64,000 bases of DNA from Dongia deserti (GTDB taxonomy: Bacteria; Pseudomonadota; Alphaproteobacteria; Dongiales; Dongiaceae): NCBI RefSeq assembly GCF_003574735.1, contig NZ_QORW01000027.1, positions 1 to 64,000 on the forward strand, in the 5' to 3' direction. The notes beneath the pieces are model-generated. The model had not been told where the DNA came from. It saw only the letters and a list, made by a program, of their open reading frames with translations, and ran no database searches. This document shows positions 114-13,327 of this stretch, one piece after another. Within the stretch, counting starts at the first letter, position 1. Each line of letters begins with the position of its first letter. A program made the position numbers and the translations under genes.

Positions 114-1550
114 CTAGATCAGCAGCGGCAGATCGCTGAGGTCCTGGGGTCCGAAACTCCCATCATGCCAGCGCAGCGCACGCGGCACGTCGATCAATCG
201 CTTTAAACCAAGCCGCGGCTTGAAATGGCAGAGACCGGGGACGAAGGCGCGCACTGCCGGCACGCCGATCTCTGTTCGCCGCAAATCAAGGACATAGGCC
301 TCTAGCCCGACGCGGCGCAGCCGTTCGCGTACGAGCTCGATCGTTTGTTCGTCGTCACAGGCGACATTGGGTGGGCGGCGCGCAACCAGCGTCTCGCCGG
401 GCTGCAGGTGCGATAATCGGCCGACCTTCGTCAGCCAGGTCAGCAATCGGCGATCCTCCGCGCGTGCTGCGTCGCCGGCCTGCGCCACCCGCCGCTTGGC
501 GAACGCGATGGACAGTTCCACCTGGCGCATCTCGCGATAGGCGGAGCGGACGGCGCGCACGCGGTCGGCGTGGCAACCGAAGCCAAGCGCCAGCAGGTTC
601 CCATCTGTGTCGCTCAGGATGGCGGCGATAACCGGGATCTCCAGGTCGTGGGTCAGGTCGAGCAAGCGGAGCTGTTGGCCCATGCGCTCGCGCGCTGCCA
701 GCGCCTGGGCGAGCAGATCGTTATCGAGCAGCGACGGCGGCACCGCAGGCCGCTGCACGCCGGCATACCACCAAATGCCGGTCGCATCGCGCTCCACCAG
801 TTCGAGCAGCGCATGCGCCAATGCGCTGTCCCGCGTCGGGCCTGTTGCGCATCCGTTGCTGTCGCCGCGCCAGCTGTGGTCGGTGCAGTCCGCGCGCGCG
901 CCGTAGTGTCCGAAGCAGATCTGCGATGGCAACCAACGCATGGATTGGTCCGTCAGCGCTTCGACCCCAGTCCAATCGATCTCGCCATCGAATGCGTCCG
1001 GCGCGGGGATGGCGTCATAACCTTGCCAGGAAACGTTGAGGGCACGCCATTGATCGCGCTGCGCCGATGCGAAGCCGAGCAGATCCCATGGGTTGATTGC
1101 CCGCTCAGCCAACCCCTGAAAATCGCACCGCTTGGCGCTGTCCCCTGTCCGATAGAGCCACGACTGGAATTCCGCAAACTCGCCAAGGCATGCGCGGATG
1201 GCTTCGTCGGAACGAAGTCCGGTTCCCGAGAATGCCTCGCGCGGTTCGCTGCCATGCTCCTGGATTGCAGCTGCGATCCACACCGTCTCATCTGCAGCCA
1301 CGCCGACCTCGAGGTGGAGATCGAATCGTGCCAGCAGGGCCAGCAGCGCGCGATCGGCCGCCGCATGCGCGCCGCTCCAGCGCCACGCTGCTTCCGATGG
1401 CTGTGCGTTCATCGCCTGAACAAATCCGACGCGCGCCAAATCCGACAGTGTTTTCTCATCGTCGGTGCTCTGCGCATGGAAGGCTGCGTCGTGAGACCAA
1501 CGACTTGCCAGCTCGCCATGCGCGGAGGAGAGAATCATGTTTCCAATCAT
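114..1550 (-). CDS. YcaO-domain protein 1 (putative RiPP cyclodehydratase/thioamidase)
   Basis: YcaO enzymes use ATP to activate peptide backbone amides, giving azolines, amidines or thioamides. The two ATP-site signatures are visible: GTGLRSDEAI followed by GEFAEF (residues about 109-128), and SNGCATGP followed by ELVERD (about 231-255). The C-terminal PAVRAFVPGL segment is also typical of the family. About 90 residues precede the first motif and may help bind the peptide. The frame is open to a TTG at 1595. I chose the ATG at 1550; 1538 is the alternative, and none has a strong ribosome binding site. No E1/ocin-ThiF or TfuA partner is visible. The gene is divergent from the precursor-like gene and the second YcaO gene. 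The C-terminus is DLPLLI, without the PxPxP end of classical azoline-forming YcaOs, so the reaction is open. Confidence 0.82.
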   Translation of the reverse strand: MIGNMILSSAHGELASRWSHDAAFHAQSTDDEKTLSDLARVGFVQAMNAQPSEAAWRWSGAHAAADRALLALLARFDLHLEVGVAADETVWIAAAIQEHGSEPREAFSGTGLRSDEAIRACLGEFAEFQSWLYRTGDSAKRCDFQGLAERAINPWDLLGFASAQRDQWRALNVSWQGYDAIPAPDAFDGEIDWTGVEALTDQSMRWLPSQICFGHYGARADCTDHSWRGDSNGCATGPTRDSALAHALLELVERDATGIWWYAGVQRPAVPPSLLDNDLLAQALAARERMGQQLRLLDLTHDLEIPVIAAILSDTDGNLLALGFGCHADRVRAVRSAYREMRQVELSIAFAKRRVAQAGDAARAEDRRLLTWLTKVGRLSHLQPGETLVARRPPNVACDDEQTIELVRERLRRVGLEAYVLDLRRTEIGVPAVRAFVPGLCHFKPRLGLKRLIDVPRALRWHDGSFGPQDLSDLPLLI

Positions 1551-1915
1551 GATTGCTGCGAGACGATGGAAGGTAGCATGACCCAAGCCGCACAAGATTG
1601 CTATGCGTTGAGGCGAACCTCATACGCAAAAGCTGACGCATCCACTTGATAGTCTCGCGGTCCAACGCCGAAGGACTCTTCGCTGCGCGCATGTATGGCA
1701 CGCTCGAGTATTCGCGCGAGAGCCTTCTCGTACACTCTGGCGACGTGCATGTTGCTTCGACCTTCACACACGCTATCAGCGCTTCAAAGAGCGAAAATTG
1801 TCGACGAGCGTATTGACAAGATTGGCCTCGTATAATAGTACGCGGGCGGGGCAATTGGGTGGATAAGAGTGCCCCGCTAACCTCAGACATCTAGCAAAAG
1901 CGGAAGGAGATGCTC
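1551..1915. other. Divergent intergenic region between YcaO 1 and the precursor-like gene
   Basis: This 365-base stretch separates the minus-strand YcaO gene from the plus-strand peptide gene and must carry the promoters for both. It contains an AT-rich island around 1795-1840 with sigma-70-like hexamers, listed separately. Open frames across it show no family resemblance and no ribosome binding sites. No second precursor peptide was recognised. Confidence 0.5.
1813..1836 (+). promoter_or_regulatory. Perfect -35 and -10 hexamers with abnormal 12-base spacing
   Basis: TTGACA lies at 1813-1818 and TATAAT at 1831-1836, about 80 bases upstream of the precursor-like gene and pointing toward it. 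Both hexamers match the sigma-70 consensus exactly, but the spacer is 12 bases instead of about 17. With 17-base spacing the -10 would be the poorer TAGTAC at 1836-1841. It may be a real promoter using that second -10, a promoter needing an activator, or chance. Confidence 0.35.
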
Positions 1916-2104
1916 ATGACAAGGGCAGGTACGCCTGTAACTTCGGCTGTCCAGCACAAGTCCTTCGCGGACTCAAGGATTTCGCCGCAACCGCTGCTTC
2001 GGTGCAAGTTGGCACCCCTTCCTCAAGAGATGCTTCGCTGCAGAAGCGACGTAACGATTTCGCCGCAACAGCTTTGTCGTTGCAAGGTCGCGGCAGGCAT
2101 CTAA
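1916..2104 (+). CDS. Putative RiPP precursor peptide, 62 aa, three Cys-containing repeats
   Basis: The start is set by GGAAGGAG at 1902-1909, six bases before the ATG at 1916; the in-frame ATG at 1910 overlaps this site. Residues 1-21 (MTRAGTPVTSAVQHKSFADSR) look like a short leader without a transmembrane or Sec signal. Residues 22-58 hold three related units: ISPQPLLRCKL, PLPQEMLRCRS and ISPQQLCRCKV. Each has PQ followed four to five residues later by R-C-K/R. There are four Cys (30, 42, 54, 56). Repeated Cys-bearing cores beside two YcaO genes suggest a modified peptide, with Cys (or Ser/Thr) turned into azolines or the backbone otherwise changed. I recognise no named precursor family. The protein is inferred from the sequence only. 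Confidence 0.6.
   Translation: MTRAGTPVTSAVQHKSFADSRISPQPLLRCKLAPLPQEMLRCRSDVTISPQQLCRCKVAAGI
1979..2089 (+). repeat. Three in-frame core repeats of the precursor-like gene
   Basis: Units 1 and 3 are also similar as DNA: both contain ATTTCGCCGCAAC, then after a variable middle TGCAAG. Unit 2 is more diverged. PQ pairs occur at residues 24, 36 and 50, and RC pairs at 29, 41 and 55, giving spacings of 12 and 14 residues. This pattern suggests internal duplication of a core, as in multi-core RiPP precursors. Confidence 0.6.
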
Positions 2105-2133
2105 CCGCCGCCAAAAAAGTATTCGTCTGCGGG

Positions 2134-2167
2134 GGAACGCTCAGATCCTCTGTCGTTTGAGCGTTCC
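2134..2167 (+). terminator. Perfect 10-bp hairpin after the precursor-like gene
   Basis: GGAACGCTCA (2134-2143) is the exact reverse complement of TGAGCGTTCC (2158-2167), with a 14-base loop. It lies between the peptide stop and the second YcaO gene, 50 bases before its ATG. No strong T-run follows, so it may be a leaky attenuator or an RNA-stabilising structure rather than a full terminator. Such hairpins behind precursor genes often allow more peptide than enzyme to be made. Confidence 0.5.
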
Positions 2168-2216
2168 TCCGTTCTAGCCATCGAAACGTAAGTCGATGTA
2201 AGGGGGGCGCGCGTCA

Positions 2217-3473
2217 ATGGAGGATTGCGGACATAGTCCTTTACGTGCCCTCTCGCAGATCGTGAGTGAGCCATACGCAATACCATGCATGGACGATGAG
2301 CCGTTCTTCCCGAGCTACATCGTCTATGCGGCAGATGGGGCAAATGCTCATGATGTAGTTGGCGAGGGCTCTGACCAATCGCTGAGCGGATTTGGAATTG
2401 CGGCGGAGCACTCGCTTGCTGAGATGAAGGCAGCGGGAGAGTGTCTGGAAAGCATCTGCGCACTGTTCCATAGACCGTCCAGAGACAAAGGGCCGGTTTC
2501 GTCCCAATCGCAGACGCTGGAGTCATCTGATCCGCGCGCATTTCGCGACGCGTTCTTTGCATCCCTCCCGGAGCATCACGAGGTCATAGACCATCAATTC
2601 GGGCTGTTAGAGCAGTGGCCCGTGTTGAACGCACGAACCGGTGAGGTCAGCACATGTCCAGCGCAGCTGATTTCTCTGTCCGCCGACTATGCGTCGGAAT
2701 GGCAACTCCTCTCAGAAAGAACGAGCGCGGGCCTGGCCGCTGGTGAAATTGGAACGCGACGCGCGACCACTGCTGCTGTACTCGAACACGTAGAGCGTGA
2801 CTCTGTGGCCGCCGCGTTCTCGGACCCTGAACGCATGAAGCCATTCGCGGCATTGCCAAGCGCGATCGCTGAACTGGTCAGCTATGTCGAGGGCTTCCGA
2901 CTCAAGCTGTTACTCTTCGACATCACATCTGATCTGGCCGTGCCGACGGTGTTGTGTATGGCACTCGACGAAACAGGACGAGGTCCCTTCTTGTCTGGCG
3001 GTGCGGCAGCGTGCCTGGACTTTAGCAACGCACTCGAAAAGGCGATACTCGAATCGGTCCAAGGACGCACAGTTCTGCGCCAACACGCGGCGGAATTTGC
3101 AGCCCTGAATGTCAAGTCCAGGCAATCGATCTCGTGTGGCATGGATCGTGTCGCCTACTGGTGGGATGTGGCACGGCACGCAGAACTGGACTTCTGCCTG
3201 CGAAGAGCGGAGCGGGACGGAGTGGACCCTGAGCCAGTCGCTTCCGTGCCCTCGTGCGAGTGTCTGCTGAATAACCTGTCAGTCAAAGGCTACGAGGTAT
3301 GGCTTGCTGACATCACTCTACCTTCTATCCGTGAGAGGGGATTTGAAGTCGTCCGCGCTCTTGTGCCAGGCCTGCACAGATTGCACCACAGCGAGGCCAA
3401 TCGGGAAAGCTACAGTCGACATTACGGGAACCTAGTGTGGGAGCAACATTGCCCACCTCATCCTATTGCGTAG
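2217..3473 (+). CDS. YcaO-domain protein 2
   Basis: This is a second YcaO-family enzyme of 418 residues. ATP-site signatures are SGFG (57-60) with GECLES (74-79), and TSAGLAAG (169-176) with EHVERD (190-195). A VVRALVPGL segment lies near the C-terminus. The protein ends in PPHPIA, resembling the proline-rich tail that classical azoline-forming YcaOs place in their active site. It is co-directional with and 112 bases downstream of the precursor-like gene, with a hairpin between. A purine-rich AAGGGGGG stretch precedes the ATG. The two YcaO proteins are only distantly similar, so they may act on different residues, as the two stand-alone YcaOs do in bottromycin synthesis. Confidence 0.82.
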   Translation: MEDCGHSPLRALSQIVSEPYAIPCMDDEPFFPSYIVYAADGANAHDVVGEGSDQSLSGFGIAAEHSLAEMKAAGECLESICALFHRPSRDKGPVSSQSQTLESSDPRAFRDAFFASLPEHHEVIDHQFGLLEQWPVLNARTGEVSTCPAQLISLSADYASEWQLLSERTSAGLAAGEIGTRRATTAAVLEHVERDSVAAAFSDPERMKPFAALPSAIAELVSYVEGFRLKLLLFDITSDLAVPTVLCMALDETGRGPFLSGGAAACLDFSNALEKAILESVQGRTVLRQHAAEFAALNVKSRQSISCGMDRVAYWWDVARHAELDFCLRRAERDGVDPEPVASVPSCECLLNNLSVKGYEVWLADITLPSIRERGFEVVRALVPGLHRLHHSEANRESYSRHYGNLVWEQHCPPHPIA

Positions 3474-3561
3474 GGCTTCGGTGATGAGACTTTGTAGGGA
3501 TGCCATACATCGCTCCGACGGGCCGTGGGGTGCCGGCCACATTCTCGTGGGGTAGTTCCAG

Positions 3562-5625
3562 ATGACGATCTCGATAGAGCCGGCCTGCTACACCAATCCG
3601 AAGCACAAGATTCTATTCGAGCCTGTAAGGATCGGACCGGTCGTCGCTCCTAACAGATTTTATCAGACGCCCTATGCAACGGGATTTGGCTTCCGGGATC
3701 CGAAGGCAAGCGCCAAGTTCCGAGAAGTCAGAGCTGAGGGTGGATGGGGCGTCGTCGGCACCGAGCAGACCGAAATTCATTCCTCTTCAGACATGACGCC
3801 GTACATAGAAGGCAGGCTTTGGGACGACAGCCACATCGCCGGGCTTGCGCTGAGCGTCGATGCGATCCACCGGCACGGTGCCTTGGCTGCGCTGGAACTG
3901 TCCCATGGCGGCTTGAATGTCATGAACGCGATTACTCGCGACGATGTCCTCGGCCCAAGTTGCCTGCCGCTGACACAAACATTTCCCACGCTGCCTGAAC
4001 CAGGCCACTGCCGAGCGATGAGCCTGGAAGACATAAAGACCCTTCGGGAGTGGCATGCGCAGGCGGCTGTCCGCGGGCTGAAAGCAGGCTTTGACATCAT
4101 ATATGTCTATGCCAGCTTGGTGCTGTCGCTGCCTGCCCAGTACCTGTCACTGCGCTACAACAAGAGAACCGATCAATACGGCGGCGCGCTAGAGAATCGC
4201 GTCCGCTTACTGCGGGAACTCATTGAAGACACAATCGATGCGGTGCAAGGGAAGTGCGCGGTGGCTGTACGCATAACCCTCGATGAGCTGTTGGCGTCTC
4301 CCGTCGACGGCAAGTCCGAACTTGAAGAATTCTTTGCCATCGTCGGGGAGTTGCCTGATCTTTGGGACATCGTGGTCGGCGGCTACGGAAACGATTCTGG
4401 ATCGGCACAATTTGGTGGCGGCGACATTGCGACGTCAGTCGTGAAGCGGGTGAAAGCGTTGACCACCAAGCCAGTCGTGAGTGTGGGCTGCTTTACCCAG
4501 CCGGACATCATGACGAAACTGATTCTGGAGGGCGTGGTGGACCTGATCGGTGCGGCACGTCCGTCGATTGCCGACCCATTCCTTCCGAAGAAGATCGCCA
4601 GCGGAAGAGGGAACGACGTTATCAAGTGCGTGGCATGCAATCTCTGCGTCGCAAGCGATTTCTCCAGCGCGCCGATCCGGTGTCCACAAAACCCGACGTC
4701 AGGCGAGGAGCTGAGACGTGGTTGGCATCCCGTGCATGTTGGTGCTGTATCGCGAAAGCGCTGCCTGGTAGTGGGCGCGGGCCCGGCAGGGCTGGAGTGC
4801 TCCAGGCTACTCGCCGCAGCCGGGCATGAGGTAACGATCGTTGAGCAGCAAGACTATGTTGGCGGTCGTGTGACTTTGGAGTCACTGCTGCCCGGCATGA
4901 GTCGATGGCGAGACCTCGTCTCCTGGCGACATGAAGCGTTGCTCAAGGACCCTGCCGTCAAGATTAAGACCAGTACACGTGCGGTGGCGGGGGCGTGGTT
5001 GTCGGATCGCTACGATCACATCATTCTCGCGACGGGTTCGCGATGGCGGAAAGACGGCATTGGTCAGTCCTGTCATTTTCCAGTACAGATCGACGGCGAT
5101 GCCGTTCCGTTGACGCCTGACGACGTGCTGAGGCGAATCCAAGGTGGTCAAACTCACTGGCCGAAGTCCGTAACGGTTTACGACGACGAGCACTACTACG
5201 TTGGGAGCTTGGTTGCTGAGCACCTTGCCGCGATGGGATGTCACGTTACCTTCGTGACACCGGCCGCCGAGGTGGCGGTCTGGACACATAAGACGATGGA
5301 GCAGACGTACTATCAATCCAGGATGATAAGGAGTGGCATCACAATTCTACCGCACTATCGCATGGCGCACATTTCCAGGAACTGGTGCCAGCTCGAGAAT
5401 GTGTTTGTCGGGTCGGTTGTTGAGGTTGCCCATGATGCGATCGTTCTAGTGACCGCACGAGAGCCGAACCGCGAACTCCATGATGCGCCGTTCATCGCCC
5501 TACCGACAGTGCGACCGACATTGGCAGGCGACGCGTCAGCCCCTGGGACGCTTGTGCATGTCACCTACGATGCCCATCGCGTTGCGAGAACCATAATTGA
5601 AGCCGACTCTTTGGTGGCGGCCTAG
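3562..5625 (+). CDS. TMADH/2,4-dienoyl-CoA reductase-type flavin and Fe-S oxidoreductase
   Basis: This 687-residue protein has an old-yellow-enzyme TIM barrel (about 15-350), a cluster motif CVACNLC...C with Cys 356, 359, 362 and 374 (CX2CX2CX11C, one [4Fe-4S]), and a dinucleotide-binding half with GAGPAG at 405-410. That order is diagnostic for trimethylamine dehydrogenase, 2,4-dienoyl-CoA reductase and related FMN/FAD enzymes. The barrel motif NKRTDQYGGALENR (200-213) is conserved. Known members remove N-methyl groups or reduce or oxidise unsaturated substrates. In this locus an inferred role is peptide tailoring, such as azoline oxidation or side-chain dehydrogenation. The stop abuts the next ATG with no gap, implying translational coupling. 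Confidence 0.85.
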   Translation: MTISIEPACYTNPKHKILFEPVRIGPVVAPNRFYQTPYATGFGFRDPKASAKFREVRAEGGWGVVGTEQTEIHSSSDMTPYIEGRLWDDSHIAGLALSVDAIHRHGALAALELSHGGLNVMNAITRDDVLGPSCLPLTQTFPTLPEPGHCRAMSLEDIKTLREWHAQAAVRGLKAGFDIIYVYASLVLSLPAQYLSLRYNKRTDQYGGALENRVRLLRELIEDTIDAVQGKCAVAVRITLDELLASPVDGKSELEEFFAIVGELPDLWDIVVGGYGNDSGSAQFGGGDIATSVVKRVKALTTKPVVSVGCFTQPDIMTKLILEGVVDLIGAARPSIADPFLPKKIASGRGNDVIKCVACNLCVASDFSSAPIRCPQNPTSGEELRRGWHPVHVGAVSRKRCLVVGAGPAGLECSRLLAAAGHEVTIVEQQDYVGGRVTLESLLPGMSRWRDLVSWRHEALLKDPAVKIKTSTRAVAGAWLSDRYDHIILATGSRWRKDGIGQSCHFPVQIDGDAVPLTPDDVLRRIQGGQTHWPKSVTVYDDEHYYVGSLVAEHLAAMGCHVTFVTPAAEVAVWTHKTMEQTYYQSRMIRSGITILPHYRMAHISRNWCQLENVFVGSVVEVAHDAIVLVTAREPNRELHDAPFIALPTVRPTLAGDASAPGTLVHVTYDAHRVARTIIEADSLVAA

Positions 5626-6555
5626 ATGACCCGGGAACACACGATCAGTAAGCAGGCATTCGGGGTTGTGACGCTTGGCGTCCTGTGGAGTGTTCAGCCG
5701 GCTATCGTCAAATACTCTGCCATCACCAATATGTCTCCGTCCGCCTTTCTGCTTGGCGCCTCCGCCACAGTTGCCATACTGCTCTGTGCGTACAATGTCG
5801 CGACCCGCCACTCGCTCCTTTCCATCGTTACGAAGTGGCGATTTTATCAAGCTTCGGCGTTGACTGGGTTCTTCTTTCCGCTTCTCGTCCGAATCTATAT
5901 TTCAGACACGGTGCCGCTCTACATTCTCACCGTTGCCGTTGCGCTGACTCCCGCATTTGTCGCTCTCATAACCCGGTTCTATCTGGGGCAAGCGCTATCC
6001 ACGCTGGCGGCTTGGTCGCTTATCCTTGGTGTTTGCGGCACAATCATAAGCGTTCTTCCGGACATCGCTGACGGAGACACCGCTCTTCGCATGAAGAGTC
6101 TGGCGGTAGTGCTCATTCCATTCTCCTACGCAGTCAATCAGGTGTTCGTGTGCAGGGCATTTCCAACGGATAGCACTTCGATACAGGTGGCCGCAGGCGA
6201 GAGCGCCCACACACTTCTTATCACCGTCTGCTTTGTCATAAGCATGGTGCTTCTCGGACGCGATGAGATTGGTGATCCGTTGGATGTATCGGCCGTCTCA
6301 GGTGCTGTGCTTTTCTGGGGAATAGTCACCGCGCTGGAGACAGTCGCGTTCTTCTGGTTCTCTGCTCGGGCACACCCGATAAGTGTTTCCGTCGCGGTCT
6401 ATACGTCGATCGGCTTTAGCATCTTCGGTGGCTGGCTGGTCTTCGGGGAGGAGGTAAGCGCGAGCAGCCTGTTGGGGGTAATTCTGATTGTGCTGTCTGC
6501 TACAGGGATCGCATATCAGGAAGGCCGCAAGACCAGCCGCACGGGCGTAACGTAG
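5626..6555 (+). CDS. EamA/DMT-family transporter
   Basis: This 309-residue protein is mostly hydrophobic, with about ten predicted membrane segments in two five-helix halves, the usual EamA layout. The glycine-rich last segments around GWLVFGEEVSASSLLGVILI match the conserved end of the second EamA repeat. Family members export or import metabolites such as amino acids. Its ATG directly follows the stop of the oxidoreductase gene, so the two are almost certainly co-translated. The likely role here is export of a small product or self-protection. Peptide export by EamA proteins is not established, so the cargo is open. Confidence 0.8.
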   Translation: MTREHTISKQAFGVVTLGVLWSVQPAIVKYSAITNMSPSAFLLGASATVAILLCAYNVATRHSLLSIVTKWRFYQASALTGFFFPLLVRIYISDTVPLYILTVAVALTPAFVALITRFYLGQALSTLAAWSLILGVCGTIISVLPDIADGDTALRMKSLAVVLIPFSYAVNQVFVCRAFPTDSTSIQVAAGESAHTLLITVCFVISMVLLGRDEIGDPLDVSAVSGAVLFWGIVTALETVAFFWFSARAHPISVSVAVYTSIGFSIFGGWLVFGEEVSASSLLGVILIVLSATGIAYQEGRKTSRTGVT

Positions 6556-6613
6556 CGCTAGGAGAAAGCACCTGCGCTCTGTGAAGGCACGCTAGCTGAA
6601 AACGGAGGATGCC

Positions 6614-6802
6614 ATGCCACTAATTCGAGTCGAGTTCTTGAAGGGAAGAACGCAGGAGGAGAAGAAGAAGCTCATTCGTGCACTAACCAACACGTATGCG
6701 GAAGTGATGGGGAGCGATCCGGAAAGCATCTATGTAATTATTGAGGAGAGGGAGTGGACCGACTGGGCCCTTGGCGGCGTGCCGTTCTCAGAGCGACCAT
6801 GA
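6614..6802 (+). CDS. 4-oxalocrotonate tautomerase-family protein
   Basis: The 62-residue length and the Pro directly after Met are hallmarks of the 4-OT family, where Pro1 is the catalytic base after Met removal. The opening MPLIRVEFLKGRTQEEKKKL fits the beta-alpha unit, and VIIEEREWTDWALGGVPFSE fits the usual second half. GGAGG sits five bases before the ATG. Family members shift keto-enol double bonds and assemble as hexamers. It is 58 bases downstream of the transporter and likely in the same operon. A tautomerase in a YcaO locus is unusual. Confidence 0.78.
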   Translation: MPLIRVEFLKGRTQEEKKKLIRALTNTYAEVMGSDPESIYVIIEEREWTDWALGGVPFSERP

Positions 6803-7123
6803 TCAGCTGCGGGCGCTGAGATCAGCGGTGCGGTTCGGGAATTGGAACAGAGCTTAGGGGCCTCGACCGGCCGATCGTTGGCTCAGTTGGTAGAGAGTTC
6901 TATGGCCACTTTCTCGCCCGACTAGGCCCATAACGGAAAAGTCCACAAGCTCACCAACATGTGTGCGGTTGCCTTCGCCCGGCCACTCGCTTCTTTTCCT
7001 CATCAAACGCGCATCGGTGGGGCTTGCCAACCAGCCATATGTACTGGGAAGAAGAGTCGTGGAGCTGGGCGACGATCCTCGGGATTCCTCTGAGTCGAGC
7101 AGGAACTGGGACGTAGTAACCGC
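6803..7123. other. Intergenic region with tRNA 5'-half-like remnant at 6880-6895
   Basis: This 321-base gap contains GGCTCAGTTGGTAGAG at 6880-6895, identical to the D-arm region common in bacterial tRNAs. No matching anticodon arm, T-loop or 3' acceptor follows, so it is at most a broken tRNA or an attachment-site remnant. The open frame on the minus strand across it (6854-7138) includes LYQLS, the antisense reading of that tRNA motif, and is not a credible gene. Nothing else was recognised. Confidence 0.45.
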
Positions 7124-9169
7124 ATGTTGACGGCGCACCTGCTTGGCGGATTCAGCCTCAGCGACCCCAAGGGCCGCGATGTCTCGCCGCGCTCGCGCAA
7201 GGCACGCGGGCTGCTCGGCTATCTGCTGCTATCGGACCTAGGCAGCGAGCGGCGCGAGAAACTGGCCGGACTGCTGTGGAGTGAGAGCCCAATCGAGCAG
7301 GCTTATGATTCCCTGCGGCATTGCGTGGCAGAGCTACGGAGGGTTGGCCAGGCTGCCGGCATCGCCTTTCTCAATGCCGACCGGCAAAGCGTGCGCATCG
7401 ATCGGTCGCAGATCAGATGTGACGTTGTTGACCTGAAAGCCAACCTTGCCGCCGCGCGCACCGCGGATTGCCGTCACCTGCTGTCAGCGCCCGATCTCAC
7501 CTTGATGCCGGGCTTGGAGGCGGACGATCCGACCTTCGACAACTGGCTTCTGGTCGAGCGCGAACGCAATGCCGAGATCCTCGTGCGCGAGATGCTGGTA
7601 CTCCTGCAGCGCCCGGGCATCGAGCCGCGCGACCGGGTTGACCTGGCCCGCGCGATCGAGCGGCTCGATCCCTATCAGGAGGATGCCGTCCGCATTCACA
7701 TGGAGCAGCTGGCGGCGGAGGGCAATATCGCCGCCGCGACCGCCTATTTTGAGCGATACCGTGCACGATTGCTCCGCGAATACGAGGTCGAGCCATCGGA
7801 AGGGCTGGTAGACTTTGTCGAAGGCCTCGCCGCGCGCCGGAGCGGTGCCAGCCGCAAGCCAAAGACTGTGGAACCGGCTTCCTTGGAGCCTGCGATCGCG
7901 CCTCAGCCGGAGGCGGGACGCCACGGCGTTCCGATCATTGCGGTTCTTTCGGTGCCGAGCGCGCAGCAATCTGATCAGCTTAGGTACCTCTCAGAGGCCT
8001 TCATGCAGGAGCTTGTGTCCACCCTGTGCCGCTTCAAGGATTGGACCGTGACTGTCCCCGGCACGCCAATGGAAGAGAAGGTTCAGTCGAGTGCTGACGC
8101 TGCGCTCGCTGAATTGTCGGCCCGCGGCGTGGATTTTGCCCTCGTCGCGTCCATTGCCGCGGTCGCCGGCGCAACGGCCATCAATGTAAGGCTGGTCGAG
8201 TGCGACAGCCGTGCTGTGGTGATCTCCGATCAATACCCTGCTTCGTCGGAGAACTGGCTCGCGGCGTTGAATGACATCTGCTGCAGGATCGCGTCCCGGA
8301 CCAAGATTAGCTTGGTGACCGCCCGGTTGCGACGAGTCGCGGGGCGATCGATCGAACGGCGCCAAGCTTATGACCTTTGGCTGGAAGGTCGGGTCATGGC
8401 TAACATCTGGGAGCCTGAGACCGAAGAAAAGGCGGTCGAGCTGTTCTCGCGTGCCGTGCAATTGGACGGCAATTTGGCGGACGCCTACTCATGGTGGGCC
8501 TCAGTGCTGAATTCTCGCTGGATTGTCCATCCCGGCGCGATCGCTGATGAGGGGAACCGCGAACGGGCGTACCAGCTCGCCAAGCGCGCGGTGGCGCTGG
8601 ACCCGCTGAACAACCTTACGCAAGGCAATCTCGGGTGGAGCCACCTTCTCGCGCGCCGCTTTGAGTCGGCGGAATTGCACTTTCGCCTGGCGTACGAACT
8701 CAATCCCTCTAGCCCGGACAATCTGCTGGCGTGCGGACTGGCGAGCGCGTTCTGCGGTGATCATCCACGCGCCCGGGAGCTTTCGCGGCGCGCCTTCGAC
8801 CTCAACCCGTTTCCGCAGCCTTATTACTATGGATATCGTGCTAGCATCGATTTTCTCGGACGCGACTTCGTGGCCTGCATCGAGGCGGTCAATCGCGTGC
8901 CCGACTTGTTCCCTGACATCCAGGGCTGGGCGGCGGTGTCGCATGCCCATCTGGGCCAGCTTTCAGCCGCGAGTTCTGCGCTCGACCGCTATCAGGAGGA
9001 CATGCGCAGATGTTGGGCAGGCCCGTCGAACCCGAACGGCGAGGACCTATGTACGTGGTTTGCCACGGCCTTCCCCATTCGCCTTGAGGCCGATCGCCAG
9101 CTGATTGCAGACGGCCTCGCGATGATACGGCAGCAGGTACAGGCCCTCGCACGCCGAATGTCGTCTTAG
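7124..9169 (+). CDS. SARP-type transcriptional activator with BTAD and TPR domains
   Basis: This 681-residue protein begins with a winged-helix DNA-binding segment (about 1-90, including LLGGFSLSDPKGRDVSPRSR and REKLAGLLWSE). A bacterial transcriptional activation domain follows (about 95-235). A middle part (about 265-390) resembles the TolB-like or adenylate-cyclase-associated region, and a long C-terminal half is made of TPR-like helices (about 400-660). SARP proteins often activate secondary-metabolite clusters, and this one sits between two unusual loci. Its stop overlaps that of the convergent NHLP-like gene. The ribosome binding site is weak. Confidence 0.78.
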   Translation: MLTAHLLGGFSLSDPKGRDVSPRSRKARGLLGYLLLSDLGSERREKLAGLLWSESPIEQAYDSLRHCVAELRRVGQAAGIAFLNADRQSVRIDRSQIRCDVVDLKANLAAARTADCRHLLSAPDLTLMPGLEADDPTFDNWLLVERERNAEILVREMLVLLQRPGIEPRDRVDLARAIERLDPYQEDAVRIHMEQLAAEGNIAAATAYFERYRARLLREYEVEPSEGLVDFVEGLAARRSGASRKPKTVEPASLEPAIAPQPEAGRHGVPIIAVLSVPSAQQSDQLRYLSEAFMQELVSTLCRFKDWTVTVPGTPMEEKVQSSADAALAELSARGVDFALVASIAAVAGATAINVRLVECDSRAVVISDQYPASSENWLAALNDICCRIASRTKISLVTARLRRVAGRSIERRQAYDLWLEGRVMANIWEPETEEKAVELFSRAVQLDGNLADAYSWWASVLNSRWIVHPGAIADEGNRERAYQLAKRAVALDPLNNLTQGNLGWSHLLARRFESAELHFRLAYELNPSSPDNLLACGLASAFCGDHPRARELSRRAFDLNPFPQPYYYGYRASIDFLGRDFVACIEAVNRVPDLFPDIQGWAAVSHAHLGQLSAASSALDRYQEDMRRCWAGPSNPNGEDLCTWFATAFPIRLEADRQLIADGLAMIRQQVQALARRMSS

Positions 9170-9558
9170 CCGTGCTTGCAGCGGCCGAACATGTATTCCC
9201 CGAAGCGGAAGAACATGGCTTTACGCGGGAAGCGGCTATCATCGATATAGTCCGGCGTTCCCGGCCGGTATTCGAGCGGATAGACGCTGGTCTGCTCGTC
9301 GATGCGGTCCATGGCCCGATCGACGTCGTCCTTCCACGGCAGCACCATGTGCGTCACGTCACGGGTATCTTCGTGAACGATGATGGTGTGCTTCACAATC
9401 TTGCCGTTCTCTTCCCTGTCGGCCGGAATGTCGACGAACTTGCTCAGCGTCCCGATCGGGTCTTCAACCAATTGCCGCCTTGCACCGCCAATATCCTGGG
9501 CAGCCTTGATGATGAGTTCGCCCAGTTCAACCTTGTCCTTTACGCGCAGCTTTGCCAT
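9166..9558 (-). CDS. NHLP-leader-like (nitrile hydratase leader peptide) domain protein
   Basis: The start at 9558 is supported by AAGGAG nine bases upstream; the frame extends further, but without a ribosome binding site. The 130-residue product opens MAKLRVKDKVELGELIIKAA, continues with RRQLVEDPIGTLSKF, then HTIIVHEDTRDVTHMVLPW. That series (Ala/Asp helix, LxxDP, VHEDTxxxxHxVLP) resembles the NHLP leader domain, derived from nitrile hydratase alpha subunit and used as a long leader by some RiPP precursors. About 55 residues follow, ending FGEYMFGRCKHG. It is the last gene of a minus-strand operon with a haem peroxidase. It could be a RiPP precursor or an accessory subunit. Confidence 0.6.
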   Translation of the reverse strand: MAKLRVKDKVELGELIIKAAQDIGGARRQLVEDPIGTLSKFVDIPADREENGKIVKHTIIVHEDTRDVTHMVLPWKDDVDRAMDRIDEQTSVYPLEYRPGTPDYIDDSRFPRKAMFFRFGEYMFGRCKHG

Positions 9559-9607
9559 GTGCGGGCTCCTTGTCTGACGATGTTGCTTGCTGGATGTGTG
9601 CTCCAGT

Positions 9608-11266
9608 CTAAGCCAGTGTTTTGACGATGACCTCGGCAAGATCGGCATCGGGCATCGCCGGGACCTTCAGCAGGTGCGGCAGCTTCACGATGCCGGTGGG
9701 TTTCAGGATCCGATCGAAGTCGAGCCCCCTTTGCCCTGCAGGCGTCGCATAGGTCTGCGGAGCTTTCTTCAACGCATACAGGATCGCCGCCGCGAAAATG
9801 TGGGAGCCGAGCGGCCCGAGGTAGCGTCCGTTGCCGCCAAGCACCGCGGCTTCCTGCAGCAGATAGTAGGAGAGCGGCGTCTCCGTCAGGAATTCTGGAT
9901 GCGCCTGCAGTGCGGCCGTCAGCTTCTCCGCCGGGTGCAGGTTGGAGAATGCCGGTCTTGGCAGCATGTCCTCTTGTGTCAGAATCTTCTTCGACGCAGA
10001 GCCGAACAGCTGGCGCGCGCACTCCTGCCCCGTGGGAATCTCGAACTGATAACACCGCCAGAGATCGTGGAACGAGAGCGAGCCCTCGAAGTCGGTGCGT
10101 CGGTTCTTGAGATCGCTATGAACGAAGGTCGGCGCCAGGAATGGCGAAATCCGCCGGGCGCTTTGCGGCGTAACTCGATCCTCCATCTCTCCATCGTCCA
10201 TCTCGAGCAGCTGGCGCCAATCGACGACCCAGTCCGCCGGCAGCGGCAGATTGGCGCCCGGCGAACTGGAGGAGAACGACATCAGCCGGCCCAGGCCGCT
10301 GGCACCCAGACCGATATGATTGTTGATCGTGTACGCCGCGCGGACCATCGCGTGCCCGACGCGCGCAGCACCGAACACGAATTCGATCGGCAGATGGTCC
10401 TGCGATGCGATCTTTCCGGCTTTCAGATCGCCATAGACCGCAGGCAGCAGGAGAAGCTGCAGATAGTCGTGCACGACGATGCGGCGGTATGCTATCAGAA
10501 CGAAGTGCCGCGCGAGCTCGAAGCTCTCCTTCTTCGACAGCGGCCGGTTCGCGTCGGCGGGATCGCCATTGTGATGCAGGTAGCGCGCAACCCTATTGTG
10601 CACGAGCATGAACTGCGCCGTGAGCTGTGCCAGGATAAGGTTGTCGTCGTTGCGCGCGTCGCGTACCAACGGCGTTATGCTTGTCCCTGCAGACCACCCC
10701 CCGGCCGCACCGGCTCTCGGAAGGTCATAGGGAAGGCCTTCGCCCTGCTCCCAATTCTCCGGTAGTGCCGCCTTGGCAGTACGCCCCAGATGGAACAGGT
10801 ACTGGCCGTCATCCTCGATATCCTGCGGCCGGTTCAGATAACCCGCCTCATACGGCGCCTGATAGAGGTGAGGGCATTGCGTCGGACCGCCGCCGTAGAT
10901 CGTGTCCAGGTCGAGGTTCGGCGTCATCAGATTCTGCAGCGTGACGGATGCTCCGCCCTGCCCCGAGCCGGCAATGCTCTGGGTCAGGTCGTGCACGACC
11001 AGCTGGCCGAAGTACGTATATCCCGCAGGGATGTTGTCGCGATCGTCCTTGGGCGGATCATCGACACCGCTGGATCGCGCATCCGCGATCTCGGCGATCG
11101 CATTCCTGTCCAGTGCCGCGCTGCCGCGCTTTGCCGTCGTGCCCGCAGCGAACAGGTTGCTGTAGTGCTTGACCGGGCATTGCACGTGCGTGCCTTCGCT
11201 GCCGCTCGCCGATGCTGCTGACGAGAGATTGCTGCCATGAATGTCGGAAAGATTACCGTGCCGCAT
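9608..11266 (-). CDS. Animal-type haem peroxidase
   Basis: This 552-residue protein matches the animal haem peroxidase superfamily (myeloperoxidase/cyclooxygenase fold). Its distal-site motif YFGQLVVHDLT holds His92 and Asp93. A second block, VRDARNDDNLILAQL followed by FMLVHNRVARYL (201-230), corresponds to the family's conserved DxRxxxNxxL...HNR region. RRIVVHDYLQ (261-270) is a candidate proximal-His segment. The ATG at 11266 has GGAGG five bases upstream, better than the longer frame to 11302. No signal peptide is evident, so it may be cytoplasmic. Bacterial members oxidise fatty acids, halides or peptides using peroxide. It is the third gene of the four-gene operon. Confidence 0.85.
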   Translation of the reverse strand: MRHGNLSDIHGSNLSSAASASGSEGTHVQCPVKHYSNLFAAGTTAKRGSAALDRNAIAEIADARSSGVDDPPKDDRDNIPAGYTYFGQLVVHDLTQSIAGSGQGGASVTLQNLMTPNLDLDTIYGGGPTQCPHLYQAPYEAGYLNRPQDIEDDGQYLFHLGRTAKAALPENWEQGEGLPYDLPRAGAAGGWSAGTSITPLVRDARNDDNLILAQLTAQFMLVHNRVARYLHHNGDPADANRPLSKKESFELARHFVLIAYRRIVVHDYLQLLLLPAVYGDLKAGKIASQDHLPIEFVFGAARVGHAMVRAAYTINNHIGLGASGLGRLMSFSSSSPGANLPLPADWVVDWRQLLEMDDGEMEDRVTPQSARRISPFLAPTFVHSDLKNRRTDFEGSLSFHDLWRCYQFEIPTGQECARQLFGSASKKILTQEDMLPRPAFSNLHPAEKLTAALQAHPEFLTETPLSYYLLQEAAVLGGNGRYLGPLGSHIFAAAILYALKKAPQTYATPAGQRGLDFDRILKPTGIVKLPHLLKVPAMPDADLAEVIVKTLA

Positions 11267-11408
11267 GTTCCCCTCCGCGAAAAGCGATACCCGCTTGCCC
11301 AAACAGATCGGCGACGAAGGCCTATGCTACTCGTGCTTGCGGTATCCCGCTTGTGTCAAAATGCGTGTGGGTTAGGGGCGGCACATCATGTGCGCCGCCC
11401 GCTCCTGA

Positions 11409-11714
11409 TCACCCCGTCGGAAACCAAAGGCTGGCGTGAAGAATCTCGTCAACGATGCTGTCCCTGGTGTGCGCAAGCGGCCGATCGTACGTCTTCACCG
11501 CCTTGATACGAATATCTTCCGCATGCAGTTCGGCGTATTTCGCACGCAGTGCTTCGAAGATCGCCGAAAGCCGATCTGCCCATGGCTCCGGACCGATGTT
11601 CAGGTTCGCTGGCTTCAAGCCAACGTTATACTCATCCTCCGGGATCAATGTCGGCACCAGGACGTGAAACATGGCTCGATTCACGTCGTAGTTCACCTGT
11701 ATGCGGGTAGGCAT
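11409..11714 (-). CDS. Small conserved-looking protein B, paralogue of the upstream gene
   Basis: This 101-residue protein has a GGGAG ribosome binding site six bases before the ATG. I recognise no family. It aligns with the product of the neighbouring upstream gene. Shared positions include DVN..M, an L-x-P with a following E/D-K/E-Y, PW or DW then L..IF.A.R.KY, and PLA.T...IV..I. It is soluble, without a signal or membrane segment. The gap to the peroxidase gene is 142 bases. A role as a substrate-binding or scaffold partner of the peroxidase is inference from context. Confidence 0.65.
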   Translation of the reverse strand: MPTRIQVNYDVNRAMFHVLVPTLIPEDEYNVGLKPANLNIGPEPWADRLSAIFEALRAKYAELHAEDIRIKAVKTYDRPLAHTRDSIVDEILHASLWFPTG

Positions 11715-11739
11715 CGTACTCTCCCTCAGCCGCCGCCAT

Positions 11740-12135
11740 TCAACTCGCCTGGCGCGCCGGGGCTTTGGTCGTGGAACCCAGGACGCGGCGCTTGAATGCG
11801 TGTCGCAGCGATGGCGAAAAAATTCTCCCGACGATCAGCTGATGCGTGGTCGCCAGTGGCAGTGCCAACGTGGCAGCAATATCCTGCTGCGATGGCCGCG
11901 GCGGCAGGACCGGGTACTTCCGGCGCACCGCCTGGAATATGGACGTCAGCTGCTCCGTCCAGTCGGGTGTTGTCGCATTCCAGTCCTGCTGCGGAACCAG
12001 GGCCAGATCGTATTTCTCGGCATCGACTGGTTTGGGAGTGAGCGCGTCGTACATCGTCTGGTTGACGTCATGCGCGACGGTGATCGGGTCTGGCACCATC
12101 AAGGCTGCCCTTTCCAAAGCTGTTAAAGTCTGCAT
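11740..12135 (-). CDS. Small protein A, paralogue of the following gene
   Basis: This 131-residue product starts MQTLTALERAALMVPDPITV; GGGAGAA precedes the ATG. It is the first gene of the minus-strand operon (A, B, peroxidase, NHLP-like), only 25 bases from gene B. The central segment DVNQTMYDALTPKPVDAEKY and later QLTSIFQAVRRKYPVL pair with matching positions in B, so the two arose by duplication. It carries a short extra N-terminus and a basic C-terminal tail. The function is unknown; conserved domains were not recognised by eye. Confidence 0.65.
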   Translation of the reverse strand: MQTLTALERAALMVPDPITVAHDVNQTMYDALTPKPVDAEKYDLALVPQQDWNATTPDWTEQLTSIFQAVRRKYPVLPPRPSQQDIAATLALPLATTHQLIVGRIFSPSLRHAFKRRVLGSTTKAPARQAS

Positions 12136-12311
12136 TGTGGTTCTCCCTCGGTATGAGTGGTGACGGGGGCAAGATGACCAAAAGTGCCGTGAAGCCAGCG
12201 TGAATAACCGAATCTCTGGAATCACAAGTATTTAGCTGCTCCTTTCACGCTGATGCGCGGGCTCTGCGCGTCGGTTAGATTGCAGATCGATCAACGACGA
12301 ACGGAATTTCT

Positions 12312-12767
12312 GTGGTGCTCTCAATTGCTCGCGAATCCCCCCGCCAGGACGACGTCATCACCCTCATCCGTCAGTCGGACGCGCTGATGCAGTCGCTCTA
12401 TCCGGCGGAAAGCAACCACCTCGTCGACATCGATTCCCTGGCGCAGCCGCACGTTCATCTGCTGGTGGCGCGGGAAGACGGGCGGGCGCTCGGCTGCGGT
12501 GCCTTCGTGCTTGGCACGGACGGCCAAGCGGAGATGAAGCGCGTCTTCGTGGCCCCTGTCGCGCGCGGCAAGGGCATTGCACGCGCGATCTTGGAAGCGC
12601 TCGAGCGCGCGGCCGCGCAACAGGGCGTCACGCTCATGCAGCTCGAGACCGGCATCAGGCAGCCGGAGGCGATCGCGCTCTATCGCAAGTTCGGCTACGT
12701 CGAGCGCGGCCCGTTCGGTAGCTACCAGCCCGACCCACTCAGCCTGTTCATGGAGAAGCAGTTCTGA
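12312..12767 (+). CDS. GNAT-family N-acetyltransferase
   Basis: This 151-residue protein has the GNAT core: a beta-strand LLVAREDGRALGCGAFVL, then MKRVFVAPVARGKGIARAIL. The R-G-K-G-I-A segment is the acetyl-CoA pyrophosphate-binding motif (V-x-P-x-x-R-G-x-G). It is followed by LMQLETGIRQPEAIALYRKF and GYVERGPF, the usual motif B. It starts with GTG at 12312; another GTG follows directly. The substrate is unknown. It diverges from the peroxidase operon and may share the 175-base intergenic region. Confidence 0.85.
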   Translation: MVLSIARESPRQDDVITLIRQSDALMQSLYPAESNHLVDIDSLAQPHVHLLVAREDGRALGCGAFVLGTDGQAEMKRVFVAPVARGKGIARAILEALERAAAQQGVTLMQLETGIRQPEAIALYRKFGYVERGPFGSYQPDPLSLFMEKQF

Positions 12768-12825
12768 TCATTGGAACCGGCATGTGCCAAGCACTCTATC
12801 GGATCGTCTGCGACTCATCCAAAAA

Positions 12826-12854
12826 GCGGGCGCCGACCCCCGGCCGGCGCCCGC
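12826..12854 (-). terminator. Rho-independent terminator for the bufferin-like gene
   Basis: GCGGGCGCCG (12826-12835) pairs with CGGCGCCCGC (12845-12854), a 10-bp GC-rich stem with a 9-base loop. AAAAA at 12821-12825 on the plus strand reads as a T-run immediately after the hairpin on the minus strand. It lies 20 bases beyond the stop of the minus-strand lipoprotein gene. Confidence 0.7.
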
Positions 12855-12875
12855 TGAAAGAGAGGGAGATCGCGG

Positions 12876-13133
12876 CTAGAGGACAGTGCCGCCCTTGCTG
12901 GTGCATTCCTCGGCCGAGGCGGTCGGAAGCCAGCCGTGGCCTTTGCAGGCGTTGAGGCCTTTGCATGAGCTGCTTGCGGTCTTGCACGCGCTCTGGCCTT
13001 TGCAGGCGTTGATGCCCGAACATTGCACTTCCGCCGACTGGGTCGGCTTGTCATAGCTGGAACAGCCCGCCACCAGTAGCAGAGCCGCCGCGGCCGCCAG
13101 GGACGCCCCCGAAGCGATACGCATATTGCTCAT
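12876..13133 (-). CDS. Bufferin-like (BufA2-type) Cys-rich lipoprotein, putative metal-binding RiPP
   Basis: This 85-residue protein has a signal sequence ending LLLVAGC, a lipobox, so Cys24 is probably lipidated. The mature part has paired motifs INACKGQSACKTASSSCKG and LNACKGHGW, ending EECTSKGG. This resembles BufA2-type bufferins, periplasmic copper-binding RiPPs whose cysteines are modified by a DUF692 (MNIO) enzyme. GGGAGGAG precedes the ATG. No BufB (DUF692) or BufC partner is in the window, so this is an orphan. It may be modified in trans, or act unmodified as a metal-binding lipoprotein. Typical bufferins use plain Sec signals, so the lipobox is odd. Confidence 0.68.
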   Translation of the reverse strand: MSNMRIASGASLAAAAALLLVAGCSSYDKPTQSAEVQCSGINACKGQSACKTASSSCKGLNACKGHGWLPTASAEECTSKGGTVL

Positions 13134-13327
13134 CGTCTCCTCCCATTGTCATGGAGTCACGGATCGCAGCAGCATCACCGTAAGGAGGGAGAGCACCCGG
13201 GGAGAAATCACCAATACGTGAGAGTGCCCCGGCGCTGTCCATCTCATGGTGCCGTGCGGCGCTGGACCTCGCGTGGCGCAGCGCATAGTCTCTACGTGCC
13301 GGGGGAGAGATCGGATGCCAGGAACCA

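Follow-up and report, generated by a model that had tools for sequence, protein, structure and literature searches.

Positions 114–9169 of the stretch of Dongia deserti DNA analysed here (64,000 nt, hereafter the window), which had been read from the sequence alone as one RiPP cluster, probably comprise two modules, a cassette and a host locus. The cassette (1.9–6.8 kb) encodes a 62-aa peptide, a YcaO protein (YcaO2), a histamine-dehydrogenase-like flavoenzyme, an EamA transporter and a 4-OT-family tautomerase, while the host locus consists of YcaO1 and a SARP/TPR regulator, together with a 130-aa small protein and a haem peroxidase located beyond 114–9169. The genes named by the sequence-only reading were found where it had placed them, those of both YcaOs, EamA and the regulator with matches above Pfam cut-offs, and its statement that no described system has this composition held in the literature searched, in which neither this set of genes nor a set of YcaO, Cys-tail protein and haem peroxidase was found. 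Of the proposed RiPP locus, the pair of YcaO2 and Cys-repeat peptide stood, having a parallel in Denitrobaculum; the idea that both YcaOs cooperate in one locus with a SARP regulator did not. On balance, we consider it somewhat probable that an acquired cassette splits a host locus between YcaO1 and the regulator, with thiazoline chemistry for the peptide–YcaO2 pair and with YcaO1 acting on an Arg-Cys tail. For this explanation we rely on the genes observed, their repeats, a pairing seen in two genomes, synteny and composition, and infer from them which substrates are modified, that azolines are formed, what every accessory protein does and that the insertion came by transfer.

YcaO1 (114..1595, minus strand; PF02624 1.3e-60, 205.9 bits, cut-off 25.7) has a LynD/TruD-like YcaO domain and no fused E1/RRE half. 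Its best solved relative was LynD (2.5e-42 over 121–486), and it scored below the SagD model TIGR03604 cut-off (175.6 vs 219.25 bits). Relatives were found in a genome of the same genus (G001, 52%) and in Mesorhizobium huakuii, and the SARP/BTAD-TPR regulator (7124..9169, plus strand; BTAD 26.1 bits, cut-off 22.1) showed 58% and 35% identity to its counterparts in these two genomes, respectively. In G001, YcaO1 and the regulator diverge at a distance of 59–89 bases, set by the choice of start, and no YcaO2 was present; in M. huakuii, peroxidase, small protein, regulator and YcaO follow the window's order and orientations. The host locus is therefore syntenic in M. huakuii and, without the peroxidase (none visible in the 20 kb inspected by eye), in G001, with the cassette absent between YcaO1 and regulator in both. 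Because YcaO1 and the regulator are adjacent without the cassette in both genomes, the single-cluster reading is disfavoured. YcaO1 and the small protein were each present in 2 of 17 genomes of the order, the same two. A DMT transporter of M. huakuii was ruled out as a homologue of the cassette EamA protein (best 18.9 bits). Window base 1 is the contig end, and sequence beyond YcaO1 lies off the contig.

GC3 of the five cassette genes was 0.60–0.66, and that of YcaO1, regulator, small protein and peroxidase was 0.74–0.77; values as low as the cassette's (0.60–0.61) also occurred in 2 of 36 other genes, which counts against the composite explanation. The cassette would have been acquired and inserted between YcaO1 and the regulator of the host locus, and an alternative history could be two losses of the cassette instead of one gain. 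No direct or inverted repeat exceeding shuffles was detected between 1551–1930 and 6791–7130, and the G001 spacer aligned at the right side only (regulator start) and not at the left. The divergent control region (1596..1915, GC 0.54) had been given as 320–365 bases long, a length that was confirmed and that is set by the choice of YcaO1 start. It contained no sigma-70-type promoter match, and promoter, terminator and Rfam scans returned nothing.

The 62-aa putative multi-core precursor (1916..2104, plus strand) starts behind an AAGGAG motif and has candidate cores around LLRCK, MLRCR and LCRCK. The three Cys repeats noted earlier beside the second YcaO were reproduced: the peptide has four Cys, three within RC(K/R), and its best self-match, first versus third repeat, was equalled by 0/1000 shuffles. 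BLOSUM62 sums for the three 9-aa units were 31, 37 and 29 in the coding frame (best pair across the five other frames, 25), and differences by codon position were 8/8/11, a weak third-position excess. The hexamer score of the ORF was negative (−0.36 per codon, lowest of six frames, model trained on the window), whereas 124/124 stretches taken in frame from YcaO2, the flavoenzyme and EamA exceeded 0.05. The ORF was absent from the gene caller's predictions and had no relative in 72,556 plasmid records (E up to 1). Between the peptide gene and YcaO2 lies a stem-loop (2129..2172, plus strand; 18 pairs including G-U, z −4.6 vs 200 shuffles), for which we infer a role as attenuator or mRNA processing element.

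YcaO2 (2217..3473, plus strand; PF02624 5.6e-36, 124.9 bits, cut-off 25.7) is a stand-alone YcaO with a Pro-rich C-terminal tail, whose best match, the SagD model TIGR03604, remained below cut-off (113.0 vs 219.25 bits). MJ1094 was the only solved chain found for it by sequence. Residues E75, E78, E190, E193 and R194 were invariant in 7/7 aligned YcaOs, the conserved Glu residues being those of the ATP/Mg site. In the tree, YcaO2 and YcaO1 fell in different parts, and YcaO2 grouped with SagD-type YcaOs, apart from the genome's own TfuA-partnered YcaO (supports 0.81–0.95). The nearest relative found was a Denitrobaculum YcaO (~31%, L006/L019), its sister with support 0.996. Directly upstream of that gene is a peptide of 76 aa containing five repeats of 10 aa, each with a single Cys; the repeats were equalled by 0/1000 shuffles and differ by codon position as 28/29/73, as expected for selected protein sequence. 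Its hexamer score was also the lowest of six frames (−0.26) despite this clear protein-level selection, so the hexamer test tells little on such peptides. As the sole clear YcaO2 relative found is likewise preceded by a Cys-repeat peptide, YcaO2 and the 62-aa peptide look, by their sequences, like a RiPP precursor/enzyme pair, a pairing of repeat-bearing short ORF and modifying enzyme known from two loci only, whose repeats have little in common beyond one Cys per unit.

The precursor, with its three Arg-Cys-(Lys/Arg) cores, would be made together with YcaO2, which would use ATP to activate the amide carbonyl before each Cys and close thiazolines (−18 Da each, at up to four Cys). By analogy with the family, thiazolines would most likely form at Arg-Cys, and an oxidation step may follow. 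Among seven plasmid matches of YcaO2, five were opened: those of Rhizobium, Haloplanus and Corynebacterium were ordinary partnered TOMM YcaOs by annotation, the Lactobacillus neighbours were annotated as hypothetical proteins only, and the Tistrella record had no annotation. Two contig scans for relatives employed short back-translated patterns, so distant relatives were missed, and three genome scans scored at most four initial candidates per genome. AlphaFold models of the small protein and YcaO2 (pLDDT 39 and 40) were too poor for structure search.

The 130-aa NHLP-like small protein (9166..9558, minus strand) is the proposed YcaO1 substrate. It ends in GEYMFGRCKHG and its relatives in LGEYTLRRCKN and LGDYVMSRCK. 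The NHLP model TIGR03793 gave 15.7 bits for the window protein and 13.2 bits for one other of six small proteins (cut-off 50.9), with no match in the other four, and profile search against solved structures returned one weak match (8vd6, 'CAP REPEAT', E 0.0007). Arg precedes a tail Cys in 5/6 small proteins and 3/4 of the Cys of the 62-aa peptide, compared with 20/218 Cys in window gene calls. The earlier expectation of a small Cys-repeat peptide beside YcaO homologues was borne out for the one YcaO2 homologue and not for those of YcaO1, although the latter are accompanied by a small protein with an RCK ending. Scanning of the M. huakuii stretch revealed no convincing Cys-repeat peptide, and the only one in G001 was an 85-aa lipoprotein-like CKG-repeat peptide ~4 kb away, of a kind that the window has too.

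Next to the small protein is an animal-type haem peroxidase (9608..11302, minus strand; PF03098 6.2e-9, 35.4 bits, cut-off 25), with its best plasmid match in the M. huakuii locus (8e-69). Two related ORFs without a Pfam family (11409–11714 and 11740–12225, minus strand), also present beside the G001 locus, are of uncertain membership. In a genome scan, 15 genomes besides the window's own were matched, with open frames of 693–1076 aa (12) and 455–535 aa (3), and neighbourhoods were fetched for the latter three only (G388, G287, G363). By eye, the small-protein/peroxidase arrangement was absent from G388. G287, G363 and a further genome, G815, combine a small protein ending in HLIR(S/C)CxxC with a YcaO and a haem peroxidase above Pfam cut-off. 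In total, a haem peroxidase occurs at five loci together with a YcaO that has no fused E1 half and a small protein whose C-terminal tail bears Cys. In the tree, the three YcaOs of the YcaO1 group and those of G287, G363 and G815 formed two separate lineages, so the arrangement is not one clade, and RCK and RCxxC small proteins aligned poorly (3 invariant columns). That haem peroxidases neighbour YcaOs in general was rejected: of 37 records with a match to the peroxidase, the two opened that had annotation, from Microvirga and Salinibacter, did not show this, and an S. meliloti stretch was unannotated. YcaO1 would most likely carry out similar chemistry on the NHLP-like protein, at its Arg-Cys tail, and the peroxidase would serve as the oxidative partner. 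Rather doubtful, in our estimate, is a wider reading, in which a YcaO without E1 partner, haem peroxidase and TPR regulator make up an undescribed system that heterocyclises and then oxidises a small folded protein at its Arg-Cys tail, and the inserted cassette copies the Arg-Cys motif three times; within it, insertion of a cassette with the triple motif in the system's control region would give the two modules a common target motif.

The FMN/[4Fe-4S]/FAD enzyme of the TMADH/histamine dehydrogenase type (3562..5625, plus strand; 3k30 3.1e-178) keeps four cluster Cys and has Ala aligned to the flavin-linking Cys of histamine dehydrogenase; these are presumably the positions of the 6-S-cysteinyl-FMN and [4Fe-4S] Cys of TMADH and histamine dehydrogenase. 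The EamA/DMT-type transporter (5626..6555, plus strand; PF00892 38.9 bits, cut-off 28.2) begins directly behind the flavoenzyme stop codon with no base between, and the 4-oxalocrotonate-tautomerase-family protein (6614..6802, plus strand; PF01361 1.1e-17) has Pro after Met. Possible roles are oxidation of rings or of an amine side chain for the flavoenzyme and product export for the EamA protein.

It is possible, if less than an even prospect, that flavoenzyme, EamA and tautomerase form a separate amine/aromatic-catabolism operon merely travelling with the peptide–YcaO2 pair. Solved relatives of the flavoenzyme are mostly amine dehydrogenases, and for five close plasmid homologues opened, the annotation within 5 kb listed no YcaO, EamA or tautomerase. 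Four of them are surrounded by methylamine/choline-type, aldehyde-dehydrogenase or transport genes, and the fifth, from Sulfitobacter, has toxin-antitoxin and LysR genes as neighbours. Denitrobaculum has none of the three among the five neighbours scanned, so they may be unrelated to the peptide. However, flavoenzyme and EamA are on the YcaO2 strand with gaps of 88 and zero bases, the deviating GC3 is common with the peptide and YcaO2, and with Ala in place of the flavin-linking Cys the ordinary flavoenzyme activity may be changed. An arrangement as in bottromycin, with YcaO1 and YcaO2 acting on the same 62-aa precursor in one cluster, is unlikely: the control region is common to both YcaOs and RC(K/R) is similar to the RCK tail found in the protein linked to YcaO1, but YcaO1 has its own syntenic partners without the cassette in two genomes, the YcaOs sit on different tree branches and GC3 differs between the modules.

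Formation of a thioamide or amidine by YcaO2 instead of thiazoline is given a similarly low probability. YcaOs without E1 partner have been tied to such chemistry, with a macroamidine postulated for bottromycin (PMC4603692) and thiovarsolin thioamides made with TfuA from APR repeats (PMC6511847), and MJ1094 was the only solved chain retrieved; against it stand the SagD-type placement of YcaO2, a Cys kept in every repeat and the lack of TfuA among neighbours scanned. The earlier observation that no E1 or TfuA partner is visible agreed with the scans: for the E1-like partner (TIGR03882) the whole genome gave one weak partial match (28.2 vs 36.9 bits) and none over cut-off, while controls gave matches in 5/14 genomes, none over cut-off, and no TfuA was matched among window proteins scanned (114–14197 except ORF 12312–12767). 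The only TfuA seen in the genome is on another contig (C18), beside a third YcaO with nine SARQCVEPTR repeats. No SagB-type gene was found among neighbours scanned, no methyltransferase among window proteins scanned (114–14197), a difference from bottromycin, and no leader peptidase was seen. We regard it as quite improbable that the 62-aa ORF arose by chance across repetitive DNA or encodes a regulatory leader peptide, with YcaO2 acting on another protein. The hexamer score, the lack of plasmid relatives, the weak third-position excess and a strong stem behind the ORF that could be an attenuator favour this; the good ribosome-binding site, repeat agreement best in the coding frame and the repeat peptide that Denitrobaculum independently has at this position, with an equally poor hexamer score, speak against it.

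If the composite explanation is true, the cassette would include a multi-core YcaO RiPP reduced to two genes (Cys-repeat peptide and YcaO, no adjacent E1/TfuA), which occurs in two members of one bacterial class that are only distantly related, and the host locus would be a YcaO/haem-peroxidase module with the C-terminal Cys tail as candidate substrate. These would be concrete candidate enzyme–substrate pairs for YcaOs without C protein, which, where their substrate is unknown, the 2015 TOMM survey (PMC4603692) named as an open question.

Compared with linear azol(in)e peptides of the SagBCD type, YcaO2 is alike in matching the SagD model best, but it falls under its cut-off; the genome yielded no SagC-type partner above threshold, and the neighbours scanned included no SagB-type gene. 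NHLP/proteusin azoline systems (MprC/MprD/MprE) resemble the host locus in that YcaO1 goes with LynD-like YcaOs and the small protein is weakly NHLP-like with a C-terminal Cys; the differences are that YcaO1 has no counterpart of the RRE-holding N-terminal half of LynD-type fusions, that the oxidase there is the FMN enzyme MprD and not a haem peroxidase, and that the small protein is under the NHLP cut-off. Thiovarsolin-type YcaO-TfuA RiPPs (Streptomyces varsoviensis) share a repeating precursor adjoining the YcaO and Arg in the repeats, but YcaO2 has no adjacent TfuA, the window repeats carry Cys and the other accessory enzymes differ, so that the closer counterpart is this genome's third YcaO. 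In bottromycin two stand-alone YcaOs act on the same precursor, and the window also has two YcaOs without C/E1 partner in one region, but here they seem to be members of separate modules, and the precursor seems multi-core.

The sequence-only reading had placed two YcaO genes and their neighbours in a single locus. Its genes were all confirmed at their positions, but they probably do not form one cluster, as YcaO1 (114–1595, − strand) and the SARP/TPR regulator (7124–9169, +) adjoin one another without the intervening genes in a same-genus genome (G001) and in Mesorhizobium huakuii. The region is probably two YcaO modules, one inserted into the other. In G001, a YcaO1 relative (52% identity) lies divergently 59–89 bases from a regulator 58% identical to that of the window, a small protein ending LGEYTLRRCKN follows behind the regulator, and no YcaO2 is present. 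Plasmid pMhuNZP2235a of M. huakuii NZP2235 carries, in order, a peroxidase, a small protein terminating in LGDYVMSRCK, a regulator (35% identical) and a YcaO. The window matches this order and these orientations, its small protein (9166–9558) and haem peroxidase (9608–11302) lying beyond the right border first proposed, plus five extra genes separating YcaO1 from the regulator. The window covers bases 1–64000 of a 68.5 kb contig, one of 51 that make up the 6.1 Mb genome; as base 1 is the contig end, the far side of YcaO1 lies outside the available sequence.

GC3 was 0.60–0.66 in the five cassette genes versus 0.74–0.77 in the flanking four; elsewhere in the window it averaged 0.80 (sd 0.07) over 36 gene calls, each 150 aa or longer, with two of the 36 at 0.60–0.61. 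Across 17 genomes of the order, YcaO1 (E ≤ 1e-20) and the small protein (E ≤ 0.01) were each found in the same two. Loss of the cassette on two occasions would also yield this synteny and distribution, which a single insertion in the window lineage explains more simply; borders of such an insertion were sought and none mapped. In a FastTree phylogeny (28 YcaOs, 378 columns), YcaO2 was sister to a Denitrobaculum homologue (support 0.996), apart from a cluster of YcaO1 with the G001 and M. huakuii proteins (0.993). Adjoining the host locus are two related short ORFs without a Pfam family (11409–12225, −), both halves of which occur in a single G001 ORF (L011:5556–6344). An 85-aa lipoprotein-like CKG-repeat peptide (ACKGQSACK...ACKGHGW; 12876–13133, −), which resembles bufferin-type peptides, is also present in G001 (L011:4772–5029, +).

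YcaO2 (2217–3473, +) is rare within the searched genomes. At E ≤ 1e-20 the single sequence matched one of 17 genomes in the order (its own) and 2/385 in the class (its own and Denitrobaculum tricleocarpae R148, likewise Alphaproteobacteria in NCBI); a two-row profile matched only its own among 398 genomes of a phylum sample, and a YcaO2-type search of the Denitrobaculum order (E ≤ 1e-15) only that genome out of 61. Pattern scanning of a named genome collection gave zero matches with the single sequence; the two-row alignment yielded a single locus there, the Denitrobaculum gene itself. Directly upstream of the latter lies a 76-aa peptide of five tandem units (EVKASSHCGK, EVTASSQCRA, EVEGSAQCGI, EVTASNSCKE and EVKASSQCGK), whose pairwise differences at codon positions 1, 2 and 3 (28, 29 and 73) point strongly to maintenance of the repeats at the protein level. 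The five larger neighbours scanned there (carbonic anhydrase, a no-family protein, short-chain dehydrogenase, PhzF-like and JmjC) included no TMADH-like flavoenzyme, EamA transporter or tautomerase, and peptide plus YcaO may therefore be the minimal unit. A 1059-aa protein with, by eye, a Cas9-like start is encoded nearby (L006:809–3988).

The ORF for the three-repeat Cys peptide proposed earlier (62 aa; 1916–2104, +) is in place: SPQPLLRCK, LPQEMLRCR and SPQQLCRCK are present, none of 1000 shuffles equalled its self-match, and a good ribosome-binding site lies upstream. The ORF is absent from gene-caller output and its hexamer coding score (−0.36 per codon) is the lowest among six frames; the Denitrobaculum peptide, for whose coding nature there is good support, shows a matching pattern (−0.26, also lowest of six).

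The nearest solved relatives of the flavoenzyme (3562–5625, +) are histamine dehydrogenase (3.1e-178) and TMADH. All four cluster Cys are retained, and Ala occupies the position that corresponds to the flavin-linking Cys of histamine dehydrogenases. None of five close plasmid homologues examined had a YcaO annotated nearby, and a role for the flavoenzyme in the peptide pathway is thus a proposal. The EamA protein (5626–6555, +), with no plasmid relatives at E ≤ 1e-5, would export the product, and the tautomerase (6614–6802, +) could contribute some step.

YcaO1 has LynD, TruD and MusD as best solved relatives, the match being limited to residues 119–489 against the second half of those chains. 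A three-row profile (E ≤ 1e-40) found 16 of 385 class genomes including its own; twelve of the other 15 had open frames of 693–1076 aa, and the three short-frame genomes were examined. Two of these, G287 and G363, share one gene order: first a TPR/cyclase-type regulator (cyclase domain below the Pfam cut-off in G363), next a small protein with HLIRSCASC or HLIRCCAAC at its C terminus, then YcaO and finally a haem peroxidase. The G287 YcaO matched three of seven genomes in a searched order, among them G815, which has the same arrangement and a small protein terminating in HLIRCCSEC. The combination of a YcaO of 465–516 aa, a small protein with a C-terminal Cys tail and a peroxidase thus recurs at five loci, those of the window, M. 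huakuii, G287, G363 and G815; by eye, no peroxidase was seen in G001. In the tree, YcaO1 and its G001 and M. huakuii relatives form one lineage and the G287/G363/G815 trio another, rather than a single clade. As the window and G287 peroxidases are, moreover, 24% identical, the association is either old or repeated. The small proteins score below the NHLP model and are therefore labelled NHLP-like only; their six-row profile found no further members in a 398-genome phylum sample.

In five of the six small proteins a tail Cys has Arg directly before it, as do three of the four Cys in the 62-aa peptide, versus 20 of 218 Cys across the window gene calls. These frequencies suggest that both YcaOs might act at Arg-Cys.

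Among the literature matches listed, as far as their entries show (including PMC4603692, PMC12455567, PMC6511847 and PMC8120280), we found no description of these gene combinations: none united YcaO with a haem peroxidase and an NHLP-like protein, and none connected a YcaO RiPP to either a TMADH-like enzyme or a tautomerase. A few of the genome papers listed (e.g. PMC9867215, PMC8776678) contain the words YcaO and peroxidase together.

A YcaO-modified peptide is of a known kind, and other YcaO loci were met alongside. Short repeat ORFs near a YcaO in comparison genome G388 (L042:11519–12916; ...SDEALDPAPAQEAAVCVFPVCY) are candidate cyanobactin-like multi-core precursors. Also close to a YcaO, on Tistrella mobilis pTM3 (L013:6322–6696), is an unannotated ORF whose tail is rich in Cys and Thr (GCCCTCTPACCCTAG); it is likely an ordinary TOMM precursor. 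On contig C18 of the window's own genome (L007:9190–11765), a third YcaO occurs with TfuA, and the 187-aa ORF directly upstream, with nine 10-aa repeats (SARQCVEPTR; a 30-bp tandem repeat of 9.3 copies in the DNA), is a repeating YcaO-TfuA precursor, in a locus that resembles thiovarsolin in layout.
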